Notes under the pieces: generated by a model
Seen by the model: the letters and a program-made list of their open reading frames with translations, nothing else
The model's database searches: none
Told to the model about the DNA's origin: nothing
Part shown: positions 9,275 through 24,085 of the stretch, in pieces
Numbering within the stretch: the stretch's first letter is position 1
Layout: each line of letters starts with the position of its first letter
Source: an uncultured Pelagibacteraceae bacterium
GTDB taxonomy: Bacteria; Pseudomonadota; Alphaproteobacteria; Pelagibacterales; Pelagibacteraceae
Direction of reading: 5' to 3'
NCBI GenBank assembly: GCA_902592325.1
Contig: CACJEC010000007.1
Location: 1-34,685 of the forward strand
DNA: 34,685 nt
Program-made: the position numbers and the translations under genes

Positions 9275-10489
9275 ATGAGTAAAATCAATGTAAATAATCC
9301 TGTCGTAGAGCTAGACGGTGATGAAATGACTAGAATAATCTGGGAGTTTATAAAAAATAAACTAATCTTGCCCTATCTTGATCTCCGTATTGAATACTAT
9401 GATCTTGGAATGAAGAGTAGAGATAACTCTGATGATCAAATTACAATTGACGCTGCTAACGCAATAAAAAAAGTAGGTGTTGGAATTAAATGTGCAACAA
9501 TTACTCCAGACGAGGCACGTGTTGAAGAATTTAAACTTAAAAAGATGTGGAGATCACCTAATGGAACTATAAGAAATATTATTGGTGGAACTGTTTTTAG
9601 AGAACCTATAATTTGCTCTAATATCCCAAAACTGGTTCCATCTTGGTCAGATCCTGTTGTAATTGGAAGACATGCTTTTGGCGATCAATATAGAGCTACA
9701 GATTTTAAAGTTCCTGGTAAAGGAAAAATGGAAATAAAGTGGACTTCAGTAGATGGAAAAAATGAGATCAAGCATGAAGTTTTTAATTTTACTGGACCTG
9801 GTGTTGCTTTATCAATGTATAATTTAGATAAGTCCATAGAAGATTTTGCAAGATCTTGCTTTAGTTATGGTTTGATTAAAAAATGGCCTGTCTATCTTTC
9901 TACTAAAAACACAATTCTTAAAAAATATGATGGAAGATTTAAAGATATCTTTGAAGAAGTTTTTAATAATGAGTTTAAGAAAAAATTTAGTGATGCAGAA
10001 ATTACTTACGAGCATAGATTAATTGACGACATGGTAGCATGTGCAATGAAATGGAGTGGAAAATATATTTGGGCTTGTAAAAATTACGATGGTGATGTCC
10101 AATCTGATACAATGGCACAAGGCTATGGATCATTAGGTTTAATGACCAGTACTTTATTAACCCCAGATGGAAAAGTAATGGAAGCAGAGGCTGCTCATGG
10201 AACAGTAACTAGACACTACAGAATGCATCAACAAGGTAAAGAAACATCAACCAATCCAATAGCCTCGATATTTGCTTGGACAAGAGGATTGGCTCATAGA
10301 GGAAAATTGGATGGAAATGATGAACTAATTAAATTCTCAAATATATTAGAACAAGTTTGTATTGAATGTGTGGAAAGTGGATCTATGACTAAAGATCTAG
10401 CAATATTGATTGGTCCATCAAGCAAATATTTAACAACAAATCAATTTTTAGATGTAATAGATCAAAATCTTAAAAAGAAATTAAATTAA
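9275..10489 (+). CDS. icd: isocitrate dehydrogenase (NADP+), eukaryotic-like type
   Basis: Converts isocitrate to 2-oxoglutarate and CO2, making NADPH. The 404-residue length, the start with [16 protein letters not shown] and the substrate motif RSPNGTIRN (93-101) followed by ILGG-like GTVFREPI place it in the homodimeric NADP-IDH subfamily shared with eukaryotes and many alphaproteobacteria, not the E. coli type. IDDMVA, DVQSD and [10 protein letters not shown] blocks supply metal and cofactor residues. It is a single gene with its own upstream region, and its 3' end overlaps the opposing alaS stop by 9 bp with no terminator seen. Confidence 0.97.
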
Positions 10490-13147
10490 AGACTTAATTT
10501 TTTCAAAAGCTTCATCAATTTTGCTACTATCTTGACCTCCTGCTTGAGCAAAATCTTTTCTACCACCACCACCTTTTCCACCAATTATTTCTGATCCTAA
10601 TTTTGCAAATTTTACTGCATCATATTTATCGACTAATTTATCAGTAATACCAACTGCTAAGCCAACCTTATCTTCACTGCTTGCAAAAATAATTACTATA
10701 CCATCACCTAATTCTTTTTTACCATTGTCAACTAATTTTCTTAAATCTTTTGGAGGTAAATCTTGTACTTTTTGAAATCTAACTTTTATATTATTTATCT
10801 TATCATCTTTAATTATATTTTTTGTTTTATCTTGAAGAGCTGAACTAACTTTAAGTTGTTCAAGTTGTCTCGAAAGATTTTTTATGATTTCTTTAAAATC
10901 TTTATTGTCAACATTTGGTTTACCTCCAAGTTTTATTATTTGAGATGACAAGTCTTTAATCGTTTCTTCATCTTTTTGAGTAGATAAAGTTGATAATTTT
11001 TCTTTATTCTTAATAAAATCCTCAAGTTGTTTATCTCTTAACGCTTCAACTCTTCTAACACCCGCGGCAATAGATGATTGGCTTACAGTTTTAAATTTTC
11101 CAATATCACCAGTATTTTTAACATGTGTTCCTCCACATAACTCTGTTGAGAAATATGCTTCTTTTTTCTTACCCATTGAAACCACACGAACTTCTTCTCC
11201 ATATTTTTCTCCAAAGAAAGCTAACGCACCTTTTTCGATAGCAGCTTTTGGTGTCATAATTCTTGTTGTTACTTCAGAACTATTTGAAACATATTCATTA
11301 ACTAACTTATCAATAGTCTCTAACTCTTCATTAGTGATTGGTTTCATATGACTAAAGTCAAATCTTAACCTGTCCGGAGCAACTAATGATCCTTTTTGCA
11401 TAACATGTTTACCTAAGGTTCTTCTTAATGACTCGTGAAGTAAGTGAGTAGCAGAATGGTAAGCTTTTAGATTATCTCTTCTCTCTACATCTATTTTCAT
11501 CTCTACAACATCATTAATTTTTATTTCTCCAGTTTTTAAAGATCCATAATGAACAAATAAGTCTCCAAGTTTTTTTTGTGTATCCTCTACTTCAAAAACA
11601 GAATTACCAGATACGATTGTACCTTTATCTCCAAGTTGCCCTCCTGACTCTCCATAAAATGGGGTTTGATTTGTAATGATCATTCCCTCTTCACCAGAAG
11701 ATAAAGATTTTGTCTCTTTATTATCTTTAATTAAATTTAATACAACGCCTTCAGACTGATTAAACTCGTAACCTAGAAATTCTGTTGGTCCAATTTTATC
11801 TTTTATAGAAAACCATATTACTTCTTCTGAACTATCTCCAGATCCTTTCCAATTCTTTTTTGCAAGTTCTTTACTTTTTTTCATCAACTCATCAAATTTT
11901 ACATGATTAACTTTTAATGATTTATTTTTTAAAATGTCTTCAGTGAGATCTAATGGGAAACCATAGGTGTCATATAATTTGAATGCTACATCTCCAGGTA
12001 AAACTTTATTTATTTTTGCAATTTCATCGTTTAAAATTTTGATACCTCTATCAAGTAAAACTAAAAATTTTTCTTCTTCCATCCTTAAGGTTTCTTTGAT
12101 TAAAGATTGTGACCTATCAAGCTCTGGATAATTTCCAGACATCTCTTTTTTTAATGAATCAAAAATTTTATAAAAGATTGGCTCTTTGGATCCTAACAAA
12201 TGAGAATGTCTCATTCCTCTTCTCATAATTCTTCTTAGAACGTATCCACGACCTTCATTTGAAGGTAAAACACCTTCGGCCAAAAGAAATGAGCTTGCTC
12301 TTAAGTGATCGGCAATTACTCTAAAACTCGATATATTTTTATCTACTTGTTTAACTTTTGTTACTTCAGATATTGAGCTTATTAATTTCTTAAAATGATC
12401 AGTTTGATAATTATCATGTGTGCCTTGTAAAAGAGCTGCTATTCTCTCCAACCCCATTCCTGTATCGACAGATGGTTTTGGTAAATCTATTCTTTTATCT
12501 TTTGAAACTTGCTCATACTGCATAAAAACTAAATTCCAAATTTCAATGTATCGATCTCCATCTTGATCTTTAGTTCCTGGTAATCCACCTTTTAAATGAT
12601 CACCATGATCATAAAATATTTCTGAGCAAGGTCCGCAGGGGCCCGTTTCACCCATTGACCAAAAGTTATCTGAGGTTGAAATTCTAATAATTCTATCATC
12701 GCTAAAACCCGCTATTTTCTTCCAAAAATTAAAAGCCTCATCATCCTCATGAAAAACTGTTACATAAAGTCTGTTTTTATCTAAACCAAAATCTTTAGTG
12801 ATTAAATTCCATGCGAGCTCAATTCCTCTTTCTTTAAAATAGTCCCCAAAAGAAAAATTTCCTAACATTTCAAAAAAAGTGTGGTGCCTTGGGGTATAAC
12901 CAACATTTTCTAAATCATTATGCTTTCCGCCTGCTCTAACACATTTTTGTGAAGTAGTTGCTCTTTGATAATCTCTTTTTTCTAAACCTGTAAATACATT
13001 CTTGAACTGAACCATTCCAGAATTAGCAAACATCAATGTTGGATCATTATTTGGAACTAAATTGCTTGACTCCACAATCTTATGATCATTCTTTTCAAAG
13101 TATTTTAAGAATGTGCTTCTTATTTCATTTAATGATTTATCTGCCAT
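10481..13147 (-). CDS. alaS: alanyl-tRNA synthetase
   Basis: Charges tRNA-Ala and clears misacylated tRNA. The 888-residue protein has the class II aminoacylation domain (FVLRPF-like ATTSQKCVR and [15 protein letters not shown] near 63-106, [11 protein letters not shown] at 166-176, GMGLER at 230-235), the editing domain zinc ligands His564/His568 (HSATH) and Cys671/His675 (CGGTH), and the C-terminal DHHA1 glycine-rich motif [16 protein letters not shown], written here in 16 residues. All domains are intact and of usual length. It lies downstream of recA on the same strand but behind a strong terminator, so it probably has its own promoter. Confidence 0.97.
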
Positions 13148-17643: not shown

Positions 17644-17759
17644 TTGGTATTTAATTAAACTATCTCTGGTTGAAGTTGTCCACAAGCATACAAAATGTGG
17701 TTTTGATGTTCACGCTTTGATTCACTTTTGATTCAATTACGGACTCAAAATACAACCTA

Positions 17760-19460: not shown

Positions 19461-20325
19461 TCTTGGTAATATCGACAATATTTTTAAGAGAATTTTTAAA
19501 CTCTTCTATGTTTTCTCTTAAAGCAAGATTTGAAATTGAATAGATCATTACTAGCAGCAACAATAATGGGATTGAAGTTATTATTGAGGCATTGCTTTTT
19601 ATTAACAAAATATACAAAATGATAAATAAAGCTGAACGAAATAAAACTGTACCTCTAAATACACTTATAATTGATAGTGAATGTTTCAATAAACTTGAAA
19701 AATTCATTTGAGAGGGGCCATGATATCTAGTTCCTCTAATAGAAGGTATTGGAAATAAATCATTTTCTATTTTTTTTAATGAACCAGAAAAGCTATTCCA
19801 TGTGGCTTTTTCATTGACCATTTTTTCTACGGTAGTCTTTGGTAAACAAGTAAAATTTCCATATTTAATGGACTTACCAGTAAAAGTAAGTGTAATTAAC
19901 TTATGTATTTGGTAACAGCTTTTAAAAAATAAATCTTCTGATCTTTTTATTCTCTCACCTACAATAGGCCTACCATTTGAGTTTTCGATTTGGTTTAAAA
20001 ATTCTGTTATTTCTTCAGGCCTATCTTCACCATCACCATCCATAGGGATTACATAATCAAAATCCTCTTTTTCATAAATATATTTTAGTCCTGTAGCAAT
20101 ACCTCTAGTATGACCTTGATTCATTTTCATATTTAAAATTTTTACAGAATGAATATTCTCTAAAGTCTTTTCATCATTCAAACGATCGTGATTAGATGCA
20201 TCATTAACTATAATAACTGAAATTTGAAATTTTGGATCTAACGATAAATTATTAATCTCATCAATTAACTTAAAAACTGATTTCCAGTCATTGTAAACAG
20301 GTATTAATATTTTAATTTTTTTCAT
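19453..20325 (-). CDS. GT2 family glycosyltransferase with C-terminal membrane segments
   Basis: A 290-residue family 2 glycosyltransferase. The GT-A domain shows ILIPVYNDW at the start, IIVNDAS near 38-44, and the metal motif MDGDGEDRP (Asp96, Asp98). Two hydrophobic segments near residues 215-265 anchor it in the membrane, as in polyprenyl-phosphate sugar transferases of the DPM1/ArnC type. I chose ATG 20325, which overlaps the TGA of the GT39-like gene (TGATG). The pairing with a GT39-like enzyme suggests it loads a sugar onto undecaprenyl phosphate for that enzyme; sugar and target are unknown. Confidence 0.87.
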   Translation of the reverse strand: MKKIKILIPVYNDWKSVFKLIDEINNLSLDPKFQISVIIVNDASNHDRLNDEKTLENIHSVKILNMKMNQGHTRGIATGLKYIYEKEDFDYVIPMDGDGEDRPEEITEFLNQIENSNGRPIVGERIKRSEDLFFKSCYQIHKLITLTFTGKSIKYGNFTCLPKTTVEKMVNEKATWNSFSGSLKKIENDLFPIPSIRGTRYHGPSQMNFSSLLKHSLSIISVFRGTVLFRSALFIILYILLIKSNASIITSIPLLLLLVMIYSISNLALRENIEEFKNSLKNIVDITKIK

Positions 20326-21644
20326 CAATTCCCTACACAAATATTATCTATACACATAAATTTATTTAAGTTATTTAAATTCTCTTTTGTGATTGATCCT
20401 TTCCAAATAGGTCTAGAATCTAGATGATAAGATAAATTTCCAGCGTTCCACTCATTTCCTAAAACAACCTTAATAGGATTATCAAAATCTTTTTTCCATT
20501 CATTTTGAATTTTTATAGAAATTTCTTTTCCTGGATAGTCAGTTCTTTTATCAGTTTTAGTAATTGAGATATAAGCATATGCAAACGGTGAAAAGATAAA
20601 TAAAATTAAAAAAGCTGAAATAAATCCATTCAATTTTTTAAAACTAATTTGGGATTGGAAAATATAAACAATTAAAACACCAAAAAATAAATAGAATGGT
20701 GTCATCCACATTGTTCTTATTTTTGATCCAGTCAGTATTGAAGTTAAAAACATTAAAAATATTGGTACTAAATTAATAAATATCAAAAATAGTAATTTTT
20801 TATCCTTAAAAGATATTTTTGACTTAAATTTTTTAATCAAAAAGAATAACATCACAAAAAATGGAATCAATATTCCTACCTGTTTACCTAAAAATATTAA
20901 TGGATAAAATATGTGATCTAAAAAACTTGAATTTTCTAATCCAGTTCTAGCTAATCCATAAGTAATAGTTATGTAATCATTATTTGTTAGCCAAATTAAA
21001 TGTGGGACTAACAAAACAATAAAGACTTCAAGAGATATCAAATATTTAAAATCAAAATTTTTATATTTTTTTATAAAGATTACAAAAAAAAATAATAAAT
21101 CTATTGCTATTAGAAGATAAATAAAAAGATATTTAGATAGAAAACCTATAGCTGCAAACACTCCAAGTAAAAAACAATCTTTAAAAGTTACTTGTTGCCT
21201 ATCAAATAATTTCCAAGAATAATAAACACATAGTGCCCAAAAAGGTAATTGGCAAATATTTACATTAAATTCTGGTGTTGTAAAATTATAAAAATAAATA
21301 CCTTCTAGCAAAAGAACTGATACTAAACTTAAAGTTCTATCGTTAAATAACTCTTCAGCAAATTTAAATACAACTATAAATGCTGTTACTACAAATATTT
21401 GACTTAATAGATAGTATGCCCAATCTTGTGCACCAAAAATTTGATAGAATATTTCAAGAAAAAAAGCACTTACTGGTGGGTGTTTATTAAATCCCCAATC
21501 TAAGTTACTGCCCCATGCGAGCGCTTCTATAGTATCCAGTGGTAAATTATTATTAGTTAATGATGGAATAAGAGTCCAAATGATCAAATGAGTGAGAATA
21601 AAAATAAAAAAAATATTCCCAATATTTCTCTTAAAAACATCCAT
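20325..21644 (-). CDS. GT39/ArnT-like integral membrane glycosyltransferase
   Basis: A 439-residue polytopic membrane protein with about eleven hydrophobic segments. The first periplasmic loop has the acidic and KHPP features of the dolichyl-phosphate-mannose mannosyltransferase/ArnT family: Asp37 and Glu40 (LDTIEALAW) and NKHPP at 53-57. A soluble C-terminal part follows. Enzymes of this type move a sugar from a polyprenyl phosphate carrier to lipid A, a glycan or a protein on the outer side of the inner membrane. Its TGA overlaps the ATG of the GT2 gene, so both are made together. The acceptor cannot be told. Confidence 0.87.
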   Translation of the reverse strand: MDVFKRNIGNIFFIFILTHLIIWTLIPSLTNNNLPLDTIEALAWGSNLDWGFNKHPPVSAFFLEIFYQIFGAQDWAYYLLSQIFVVTAFIVVFKFAEELFNDRTLSLVSVLLLEGIYFYNFTTPEFNVNICQLPFWALCVYYSWKLFDRQQVTFKDCFLLGVFAAIGFLSKYLFIYLLIAIDLLFFFVIFIKKYKNFDFKYLISLEVFIVLLVPHLIWLTNNDYITITYGLARTGLENSSFLDHIFYPLIFLGKQVGILIPFFVMLFFLIKKFKSKISFKDKKLLFLIFINLVPIFLMFLTSILTGSKIRTMWMTPFYLFFGVLIVYIFQSQISFKKLNGFISAFLILFIFSPFAYAYISITKTDKRTDYPGKEISIKIQNEWKKDFDNPIKVVLGNEWNAGNLSYHLDSRPIWKGSITKENLNNLNKFMCIDNICVGN

Positions 21645-21673
21645 AATCTAACATTTACATTAATTAACCCAGC

Positions 21674-21708
21674 TTGACACCCTAATTTTGCTGAATATAC
21701 TCCGCCGC
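21674..21708 (+). promoter_or_regulatory. sigma-70 promoter of dksA with GC-rich discriminator
   Basis: TTGACA (21674-21679) is a perfect -35, followed after 16 bp by TATACT (21696-21701). The next seven bases, 21702-21708, are CCGCCGC, all G or C in otherwise AT-rich DNA. A GC-rich discriminator between -10 and +1 is known for promoters inhibited by ppGpp and DksA, so dksA may repress itself. The dksA ATG is 16 bp further on. Confidence 0.65.
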
Positions 21709-21723
21709 TACTAATTTAAATCG

Positions 21724-22224
21724 ATGCCAAAGACTACGAAAACTAAAAAAAAAGTTACGAAAATAAAAAATAAAAAAGTAACTAAAACTAAAGAAATAAA
21801 AAAAATTCCATTAAAAATTTCGAAAACTTATATTCCTAAAGATACGGAAAAATACATGTGTGAAAAACACAAGGTATATTTTAGATTAAAATTACTAGAC
21901 TGGAGAAAGGAACTAATTAAAGCTAACAATGAGGCATTATATAATGGAAGCATGGATGATAATAGTATCTCAGCAGATATAGTTGACCAAGCAAGCTCAT
22001 ACACTGACAAAAACGTAGAGATGAAAGCTATAAATAGACAAATCAAATTGATTTCAGAAATAGATAAGGCCCTGATAAGAATAAAAGATGAAACTTATGG
22101 ATATTGTTTAGATACTGCTGAAAAGATAGGATTAAAAAGATTAATGGCAAGACCTATAGCCAAGTATACAATTGCTGCTCAAGAAAAACATGAAAAAGAC
22201 GAAAAGGTTCATGCTGATGACTAA
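21724..22224 (+). CDS. dksA: RNA polymerase-binding factor DksA, zinc cysteines mostly lost
   Basis: DksA binds in the RNA polymerase secondary channel and works with ppGpp in the stringent response. The 166-residue protein has a Lys/Thr-rich N-terminus (1-30), the coiled-coil with the acidic tip ADIVDQAS (84-91), and the C-terminal region TYGYC...IGLKRLMARPIA. Of the four zinc-finger cysteines only Cys128 remains; the other places are Thr131, Thr149 and Ala152. Related alphaproteobacterial DksA proteins, from memory, share this loss, so it is probably lineage-typical. The next micro-ORF overlaps its 3' end by 8 bp. Confidence 0.93.
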   Translation: MPKTTKTKKKVTKIKNKKVTKTKEIKKIPLKISKTYIPKDTEKYMCEKHKVYFRLKLLDWRKELIKANNEALYNGSMDDNSISADIVDQASSYTDKNVEMKAINRQIKLISEIDKALIRIKDETYGYCLDTAEKIGLKRLMARPIAKYTIAAQEKHEKDEKVHADD

Positions 22225-22345
22225 AAAAAGAAAAACAAATAAAAAGGTTCATAACCCTATAACATATAATTTTACTAAAAAATATATTTATTACTATTAT
22301 GCTTTTTTTTGGATAATTTTATTATTATTTATATTTACTAGATGA
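22217..22345 (+). CDS. small membrane protein (42 aa), hypothetical
   Basis: ATG at 22217 overlaps the dksA stop by 8 bp; the frame ends with TGA at 22343-22345. The product is 42 residues with a strongly basic N-terminus (MTKKRKTNKK) and one hydrophobic segment near 27-40 (FFWIILLLFIF), as in a single-pass small membrane protein with the N-terminus inside. No family is recognised. Support is the reading frame, the coupling to dksA and the topology; AT-rich DNA can give such frames by chance. Confidence 0.45.
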   Translation: MTKKRKTNKKVHNPITYNFTKKYIYYYYAFFWIILLLFIFTR

Positions 22346-22446
22346 ACAAAAAATTAATTTTAATTATTATTATAATTCTTTGCATAGAGTTATCTGGTCA
22401 TGGAATAATTGTATCATTAATGAGATTACTTAATTCAATGAGTTAA
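22342..22446 (+). CDS. very small membrane protein (34 aa), hypothetical
   Basis: ATG at 22342 overlaps the stop of the preceding micro-ORF in an ATGA arrangement, and the frame ends at TAA 22444-22446, 1 bp before the opposing GST gene's stop. The 34 residues start MNKK and continue as a hydrophobic run of isoleucine and leucine, then a short amphipathic tail. It fills the whole gap between its neighbours. No family is recognised. Confidence 0.35.
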   Translation: MNKKLILIIIIILCIELSGHGIIVSLMRLLNSMS

Positions 22447-23073
22447 TTAAGTTTTTGGTGGTAATTCATTTTCATTCATAAAAGAAAATCCCTTTTTAAC
22501 TGCATCACGTTTAGAAATTTCATTATACCATCTTGTTAAATTTTCAAATTTAGATAATCCAATATCATGCCAGTCGTGTCTTGCAATCCATGGAAATGTT
22601 GCAATATCTGAGATAGTGTAATTATTTCCAGATAAAAATTTTTTAGCTGCTAATCTTTCATCAAGTTCTTGATATATTCGTTTTGAAATTTTAAAATATC
22701 TATCTTCTCCAAATTTGCTTTTACCAGGATTATAATGATGAAACTGATGGTGCTGACCTAACATTGGCCCAATATATCCCATTTGTGCCATCAACCATTG
22801 ATTAATTTCTAACTTGTCTTCCTTATCATAAAATTTTCCACTTTTTTCCGCTAAATAAATTAATATTGCTCCGGACTCAAAGACTGTTTGATTGTTTTCA
22901 TGATCAATAATGACAGGAATTTTGCTAAACGGACTTATTTTTTTAAAATCTAAACTGAATTGTTCACCCTTATCAAGGTCAATTTTAGTTACCTTGTATT
23001 CATAACCAATTTCTTCAAGCATTATGCTTATTTTTTTACCATTAGGAGTATTAGCTGAAAAAAGTTCAATCAC
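22447..23073 (-). CDS. glutathione S-transferase family protein
   Basis: A 208-residue GST of the bacterial YfcG/Ure2-like kind. The thioredoxin-fold N-domain starts IELFSANTPNGKKISIMLEE, has the cis-Pro segment SKIPVI near 52-57 and the glutathione-contacting ESGAI (66-70); the alpha-helical C-domain follows with the DIATFPW motif. The family includes disulfide-bond reductases acting with glutathione. It overlaps the ferredoxin reductase gene by 8 bp at its start, so it is the last gene of the ferredoxin-FNR-GST run. Confidence 0.9.
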   Translation of the reverse strand: MIELFSANTPNGKKISIMLEEIGYEYKVTKIDLDKGEQFSLDFKKISPFSKIPVIIDHENNQTVFESGAILIYLAEKSGKFYDKEDKLEINQWLMAQMGYIGPMLGQHHQFHHYNPGKSKFGEDRYFKISKRIYQELDERLAAKKFLSGNNYTISDIATFPWIARHDWHDIGLSKFENLTRWYNEISKRDAVKKGFSFMNENELPPKT

Positions 23074-24085
23074 TTTTTACACCCAAACGATCTTTTATTG
23101 TCTTGGATGATGTTGTAAATTCAAATCTATATTTTTCATTAGGTCTTGCTAACTTAAAACACGCTCTCGCAGCTAAAGCACCCTCATGAAAACCAGACAA
23201 AATTAATTTTAATTTTCCAGGATAAGTACATATGTCACCAACAGCGTAAATGCCTTGTTGATTTGTCTCAAATTTTTCAGTATCAACTTCAATTGTTTTT
23301 TTATCAATAGTTAAACCCCAATTAGCGATCGGACCAAGCTGCATAATCAATCCAAAAAACCCTAATGCATAATCTGTTTTTATATTTTTTGTCTCCTTAT
23401 CTTCGCTTTTGATATCTATACTTTCTAGTTGATTATCTCCTTTAATTGATGCTATTTGGTATTTTGTAAAAAGATTTATTTTTCCCTCTTTAACGAGTTC
23501 ATGAACATGGTCTACTGTAGCTTGGGCACCCCTAAAATCTTCTCTTCTATGAACTAAATTAACTTTAGAAGTCTTTGATAATTCAACAGCCCAATCAAGA
23601 GCACTATCACCTCCACCAAAGATTGTAACTATTTTTCCATCAAAAATTTTTTTATTTTTGACTGAATAAAAAATAGATTTATCCTCAAATTTCTCACAAT
23701 CTTTAATAGGAAATTTTCTAGGTTCAAAAGATCCTACACCTCCAGCAATTATTACATTTGGAGTAGAAAAAATAGTACCTTTATTAGTTTTAACAATCCA
23801 ATTTTCATTTTCTTTTTTTACTTCATCTACTCTTTCACTTAAGTGAAATTTTATATCAAATGGTTTTAATTGATTAATAAGTTTATTGGTTAATTCTTCT
23901 CCAGTACACTCGGGCACAGCTGGAATATCATAAATTGGTTTATCTGGATAAAGCTCAATACATTGCCCTCCAATTTTATCTAGATTATCGACTATCTCAC
24001 AATTTAAACCAATTAATTTTAATTGATGCGCCGTAAATAAACCTGTTGGTCCTGCTCCAATAATTAGTGCATCAATCTTATTCAT
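23066..24085 (-). CDS. ferredoxin-NADP+ reductase, thioredoxin-reductase-like type
   Basis: A 339-residue flavoprotein. The FAD site GAGPTGLFTAHQL lies near 10-22, GGQCIELYPDKP near 39-50, and the NADP site GGGDSALDW near 156-164; a second FAD motif VGDICTYPGK lies near 278. The CxxC redox pair of true thioredoxin reductase is absent, which with the GGQC...YPDKPIYDIP segment identifies the YumC-type ferredoxin reductase. It should move electrons between NADPH and the 2Fe-2S ferredoxin encoded 1 bp upstream. Its end overlaps the GST gene by 8 bp. Confidence 0.92.
   Translation of the reverse strand: MNKIDALIIGAGPTGLFTAHQLKLIGLNCEIVDNLDKIGGQCIELYPDKPIYDIPAVPECTGEELTNKLINQLKPFDIKFHLSERVDEVKKENENWIVKTNKGTIFSTPNVIIAGGVGSFEPRKFPIKDCEKFEDKSIFYSVKNKKIFDGKIVTIFGGGDSALDWAVELSKTSKVNLVHRREDFRGAQATVDHVHELVKEGKINLFTKYQIASIKGDNQLESIDIKSEDKETKNIKTDYALGFFGLIMQLGPIANWGLTIDKKTIEVDTEKFETNQQGIYAVGDICTYPGKLKLILSGFHEGALAARACFKLARPNEKYRFEFTTSSKTIKDRLGVKSD

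Follow-up and report, generated by a model that had tools for sequence, protein, structure and literature searches.

Does the dksA gene of SAR11 sit under a promoter that its own product could repress, and would ppGpp take part in such a loop? The question is raised by a stretch of 34,685 nucleotides from an uncultured Pelagibacteraceae bacterium (contig CACJEC010000007.1), referred to here as the window, in which strong promoter hexamers upstream of dksA are followed by seven consecutive G/C bases in DNA of 29% G+C. An earlier note on these letters proposed the feedback known from E. coli. Its two premises agree with the literature: E. coli promoters repressed by DksA and ppGpp carry G+C-rich discriminators (PMC7822876, PMC9304144), and E. 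coli dksA limits its own synthesis, the DksA level being held constant by negative feedback according to PMC4370453, which cites Chandrangsu 2011. SAR11 bacteria, which rank with the most abundant in the sea, possess few regulators, and the strictly kept promoter of a global polymerase regulator may represent one of the few circuits that they could not lose, and SAR11 dksA offers a simple testable case of growth control. No report on the regulation or expression of Pelagibacter or SAR11 dksA was found in the open-licence PMC literature.

The dksA promoter in the window

Direct reading and a consensus scan both returned the hexamers, the spacer and the G/C run with the letters and coordinates originally given (Table 1). 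The assignment of the gene as dksA is likewise confirmed by Pfam PF21157 (49.3 bits, cut-off 27) and PF01258 (32.3 bits, cut-off 24.9), which correspond to an N-terminal coiled coil and a zf-dskA_traR domain; the NCBIfam dksA model TIGR02420 scored 99.7 bits, under its cut-off of 115.5. The dksA promoter matches 11 of 12 consensus positions and ranks first among 24 sites in the scan of positions 20000-23500. The number of sites in these 3.5 kb is itself meaningless, as shuffled sequences yielded 24.6. The discriminator is followed by T 21709 and A 21710, with the dksA ATG at 21724, and is the only noncoding one among three G/C runs of at least seven bases in the window; the other two are located inside an 888-aa open reading frame at 10481-13147.

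Table 1 Features of the dksA promoter region in the window.
Feature	Position	Strand	Remarks
-35 element of dksA, TTGACA	21674..21679	+	Read directly; identical in 155/155 family loci
16-bp spacer, 3' part TTGCTGAA strongly conserved in the genus	21680..21695	+	Length 16 in 155/155
-10 element, TATACT	21696..21701	+	TATACT 104, TATATT 44, TATTAT 6, TATAGT 1, TATAAT 0 (n = 155)
G+C-rich discriminator, CCGCCGC	21702..21708	+	Mean G+C 0.70 (69 thinned loci); composition kept, letters change
Likely transcription start, G 21707 or A 21710	21707..21710	+	Suggested by the purine at position 6 (49/69 thinned loci)
dksA, 166 aa; degenerate zinc finger, Lys-rich N-terminus	21724..22224	+	
Divergent membrane-glycosyltransferase-like gene, intergenic region common with dksA	20325..21644	-	Name from reading the sequence

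An AT block at 21645-21673 lies directly upstream of the -35 element and is conserved (about ATTTATA.AATTAA in relatives). It may be an UP element, or it may hold the -10 element of the divergent gene, placed back to back with the dksA promoter. Of 235 loci examined, 216 have an upstream open reading frame, and at 213 of these it is a homologous divergent neighbor. Elsewhere in the window, the SAR11_0636 sRNA (RF01827, 114.6 bits) occupies 17668-17757 on the minus strand, and its 5' part recurs upstream of different open reading frames in 38 of 81 sequences, namely the window and 80 named loci of relatives.

Conservation and rarity of the promoter

Collection of dksA from the genus and family gave 158 loci, of which three (L031, L046, L080) have no upstream DNA, leaving 155; one genome, G012, is counted twice among them (L036, L087), and G166, at a contig edge, and G174, a weak match (E 4.7e-4), are outside the set. 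A thinned set comprises 69 loci with less than 85% identity to one another. Alignment of the SAR11 upstream regions, which had been suggested as a check, showed that the promoter and a G+C-rich discriminator are conserved family-wide: all 155 loci combine TTGACA with exactly 16 bp and a -10 element (TATNNT) that is one letter off TATAAT, and TATAAT itself occurs in none of the 155, a constancy that favors feedback. At 80 of 80 named relatives' loci the arrangement is TTGACA, 16 bp, TATACT; these are SAR11 (Pelagibacteraceae) records of up to 20 kb each, all close to the window, some possibly from the same genomes as members of the 155-locus set.

In the sister family of the order, a conserved TTGACT is found upstream of dksA (24 of 25 matched loci, G217 omitted), and inspection by eye of the 24 loci revealed no TATANT at the right distance from it. 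Most of these loci have CTAAAA and then GCACC 16 bp downstream, and a G/C block may therefore persist there on a weaker promoter. Among the family and sister-family loci compared, the strong promoter form is confined to the window's family.

Near-consensus promoters are otherwise rare. The pattern TTGACAN{15,18}TATANT has a single match, at dksA, in the window's own 925-kb assembly (75% complete), versus eight for the reversed-pattern control, and no second TTGACA-N15-18-TATANT beyond dksA was detected on either strand in the 1.35 Mb of the 80 named loci. In 13 near-complete family genomes, TTGACAN{15,18}TATAMT matches zero to three times each, 16 times in total, against 60 for the reversed control; by this measure near-consensus -35/-10 pairs look avoided, rather than common, in the family. 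Eight of the 16 matches are dksA itself, in eight of the nine genus genomes, and dksA is the sole match in five genomes. The dksA -10 element of the other five genomes is TATATT or TATTAT and so cannot be matched by the TATAMT pattern. The eight matches away from dksA have from zero to five G/C among the seven bases after the -10 element. A strict pattern (TTGA, 17-20, TATANT, six G/C) identified dksA only, in three of 10 genomes, and its reversed control gave none.

That the dksA promoter is the most consensus-like one found would also fit constant high output, in which sticky consensus hexamers and an escape-speeding G+C-rich discriminator drive strong, unregulated dksA transcription in the absence of feedback. 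According to PMC7822876, escape from rRNA promoters is eased by their G+C-rich discriminator, and SAR11 are described as relatively poor in transcriptional regulators in PMC13198564, a paper whose main text leaves DksA and ppGpp unmentioned. On the other hand, E. coli keeps the level of DksA, a global regulator, under feedback control (PMC4370453), and a -10 element that is never TATAAT in 155 loci suggests limited output. We consider constant high output rather improbable, though worth keeping in mind.

Composition of the discriminator

The seven bases after the -10 element average 70% G+C in the 69 thinned loci, compared with 27% for the whole loci, 27% for the spacer, 14% upstream of the -35 element and 12% for positions +9 to +15. 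The discriminator had been called GC-only. Its G+C richness proved to be conserved, but the exact run of seven is particular to eight of the 155 loci; 128 loci have four to six G/C (four in 35, five in 54, six in 39). A sliding seven-base window of G+C peaks exactly at the -10 boundary, and the profile is flatter when aligned on the ATG than when aligned on the -10 element (maximum 0.51 versus 0.91). Since the peak stays at the -10 element while the distance from there to the ATG varies from 9 to 36 nt in relatives, the G/C block belongs to the promoter rather than to the ribosome-binding region. That a G/C run merely happened to follow a promoter, as its complete form in so few loci might suggest, is extremely improbable: the enrichment extends across the 69 thinned loci with its maximum precisely at the boundary, and this cross-species conservation led us to reject chance.

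Among 105 independent pairs, positions +1 to +7 differ at 153 of 735 sites and 57 of these changes swap G and C, whereas +9 to +20 differ at 195 of 1260 sites with only five such swaps. What is held in the discriminator is thus its composition and not a motif: the letters turn over and the G/C content stays. In the same pairs the spacer, whose 3' half reads TTGCTGAA in the genus, changed at 96 of 1680 sites (5.7%); it is better conserved than both the discriminator (21% of sites changed) and positions +9 to +20.

The conserved spacer, together with the AT block directly upstream of the -35 element and the near-constant divergent neighbor, might indicate that the spacer, the upstream block and even the G/C block serve the divergent gene or a DNA-binding regulator, as an operator or shared divergent promoter. 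We regard this as very unlikely, given that the letters of the G/C block turn over quickly at constant composition. A palindromic operator, TGAATATATTCA, was considered and rejected; the palindrome-like sequence is not formed in loci with TATACT.

The dksA discriminator was also compared with those of other promoters. As a crude control, the highest-scoring sigma-70-like site was taken from the noncoding DNA in front of open reading frames of the window and the 80 named loci. The resulting 505 promoter-like sites other than dksA, many of them redundant between relatives, have a mean G+C of 29% over the same seven bases. Control sites scoring 10/12 have 17% (56 sites), versus 74% for the dksA sites (70 sites). 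With a score of at least 8 and 5/7 G/C there are 32 non-dksA rows, 29 of which are a recurring GAGTCCG site; this was rejected as a discriminator because it is inside the known SAR11_0636 sRNA. The genus rRNA promoter reads TTGATT (once TTGCTT)-16 bp-TATAAG (seven genomes; 10 loci looked at), and its discriminators, e.g. CACCACA and CATCAAA, contain 22 G/C in 49 bases counted by hand. The dksA discriminator is richer in G+C than those of the other promoter-like sites and than that of the moderately G+C-rich rRNA promoter. Like the dksA promoter, the rRNA promoter (L180-L185, L188) has a 16-bp spacer, and a C directly follows its TATAAG.

Transcription start and leader

Purines near the putative start in the window are located at 21704, 21707 and 21710. 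Within the first ten positions after the -10 element, position 6 is the one where the thinned set most often has a purine (Table 1); it corresponds to 21707. In the window, A 21710 would fit a start 9 nt after the -10 element, the distance in rrnB P1, but pyrimidines prevail at positions 8-10 across the family, whose purine preference is at position 6. The start previously placed near 21708 lies within 2 nt of these likely starts, and a start at 21707-21710 would leave a leader of about 14-17 nt. An RNA element in the dksA leader was rejected, there being no Rfam match in 21400-22400. In 13 of the 155 family loci (L151, L155, L156, L158, L160, L162-L164, L166-L168, L171, L175) the ATG follows the -10 element by only 9-11 nt, and the mRNA would be nearly leaderless.

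DksA and the ppGpp-binding sites

The dksA of the window is the one DksA match at E <= 0.001 in its incomplete genome. D71, D74 and A76, the residues of the DksA coiled-coil tip, are kept in 155/155 family rows, as are R91, L95 and R129 (E. coli numbering; the window is counted twice). In contrast, K139 is Gln in every row, and K98 is Glu in the 40 loci closest to the window by DksA identity, the measure that defines the group nearest the window here; the other 115 have Lys. Glu also occupies position 98 in 80/80 named loci. The zinc finger is degenerate and not of the canonical C4-zinc type: in the window C114 is kept, C117 and C135 are replaced by Thr and C138 by Ala, and in the family C117 is Thr (154) or Ser (1), C138 is always Ala and 45 of the 155 rows retain C135. 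The Lys-rich N-terminal tail of the window protein is missing from many relatives.

DksA residues K98, R91, K139 and R129 contact ppGpp at site 2, and the K98A and R129A substitutions abolish ppGpp binding there, with DksA still binding polymerase and still shortening the life of promoter complexes (PMC7676912). On the polymerase side, beta' N680, K681 and D684 are kept in all seven genomes in which rpoC was found; the window's own assembly, 75% complete, yielded no rpoC. Of the site 2 set, R91, L95, R129 and N680 are kept, K98 is changed near the window and K139 is changed throughout. The replacement of these two ppGpp contacts by Glu and Gln makes ppGpp action at site 2 doubtful in the window's organism and would weaken the ppGpp arm of any feedback. 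Site 1 looks mostly intact: beta' R417, K615 and D622, which along with R362 we take to be site 1 residues, are kept, R362 is Lys, and omega has the likely start MARVTVEDC in 8/8 genomes, including the window's. The window's genome also encodes an Rsh with HD, synthetase, TGS and ACT domains.

Where site 2 is predicted to be weak, the discriminator is not. Its G+C is 76% in the E98 loci (40 loci; 83% in 12 thinned loci), as against 67% in the others (115 loci; 67% in 57 thinned loci). Because the grip on ppGpp at site 2 would be lost with E98 and Q139, yet the G+C-rich discriminator is kept and even enriched, it is tentatively suggested that in this group dksA works as a ppGpp-independent homeostat: DksA would set its level by itself, with no coupling to the stringent response.

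The site 2 changes are irrelevant to another explanation, in which the G+C-rich discriminator makes dksA transcription follow negative supercoiling, and thereby energy charge, without DksA or ppGpp. For five distantly related bacteria, Mycoplasma pneumoniae included, such discriminators have been linked to repression upon DNA relaxation (PMC8422995), and a constraint on composition alone fits a sensor of this kind. It gives no reason why dksA in particular should stand out, and it is compatible with feedback rather than exclusive of it; as the explanation of this promoter, we judge it unlikely.

Proposed autorepression

The preferred reading, to which we give an even chance, is that the dksA promoter resembles an rRNA promoter and is repressed by DksA itself, with a doubtful role for ppGpp at site 2. 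As a housekeeping-sigma promoter, it should recruit polymerase strongly through the near-consensus -35 and -10 hexamers. Coupled to these, the G+C-rich discriminator would make the open complex unstable, and the unvarying 16-bp spacer and never-perfect -10 element may add to this brake. DksA entering the secondary channel of polymerase would destabilize such complexes. A rise in DksA would then shut off its own promoter, keeping the protein at a set level. DksA would plausibly be the more certain arm of this feedback: near the window two of the residues by which DksA grips ppGpp at site 2 have been exchanged, so that in this group the loop would rest mainly on DksA itself, possibly helped by ppGpp at site 1. 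As worded in the earlier note, with ppGpp and DksA acting as they do in E. coli, the feedback is not borne out, both because of the changes at K98 and K139 and because fast promoter escape and supercoiling fit as well. Two signals studied jointly in E. coli would become separated in SAR11 if DksA there acts with no ppGpp at site 2.

Several observations argue against autorepression. Strong hexamers give stable complexes and are able to relieve inhibition by DksA (PMC7822876), and the response to ppGpp/DksA is still hard to predict from sequence (PMC9304144). The classic target, the rRNA promoter, has a discriminator of only moderate G+C content in this genus. In the sister family the strong dksA promoter is absent. 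Finally, an rrnB P1-type start at 9 nt is at odds with the pyrimidines that predominate at family positions 8-10.

Comparison with known systems

The best match to the window DksA among solved structures is PDB 4ijj, presumably the zinc-independent DksA2 of Pseudomonas aeruginosa. The zinc finger is cysteine-poor in both; in the alignment 4ijj has Lys at the K139 position, whereas the window protein has Gln. Compared with E. coli DksA, the SAR11 protein is without K98 (near the window), K139 and most of the zinc cysteines.

The SAR11 dksA promoter shares its gene with the E. coli dksA promoter, and negative feedback keeps the product of the latter at a constant level (PMC4370453). Inspection by eye shows a G/C block, TAGCGGCC, after an AT-rich stretch upstream of E. 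coli dksA as well. The SAR11 promoter is near-consensus (11/12, 16-bp spacer), whereas the best E. coli dksA site reached at most 7/12 in a scan of 420 bp upstream that demanded A2 and T6 in the -10 element.

The spacer of E. coli rrnB P1 is also 16 bp, and the SAR11 dksA promoter resembles promoters of this type in its G+C-rich discriminator directly after the -10 element and in the AT-rich DNA upstream of the -35 element. In rrnB P1 the -10 element is perfect and the -35 element imperfect; SAR11 dksA shows the reverse, so its imperfect -10 element is not an rrn feature. Transcription of SAR11 dksA probably starts 6 nt after the -10 element, as compared with 9 nt in rrnB P1 (PMC7822876).
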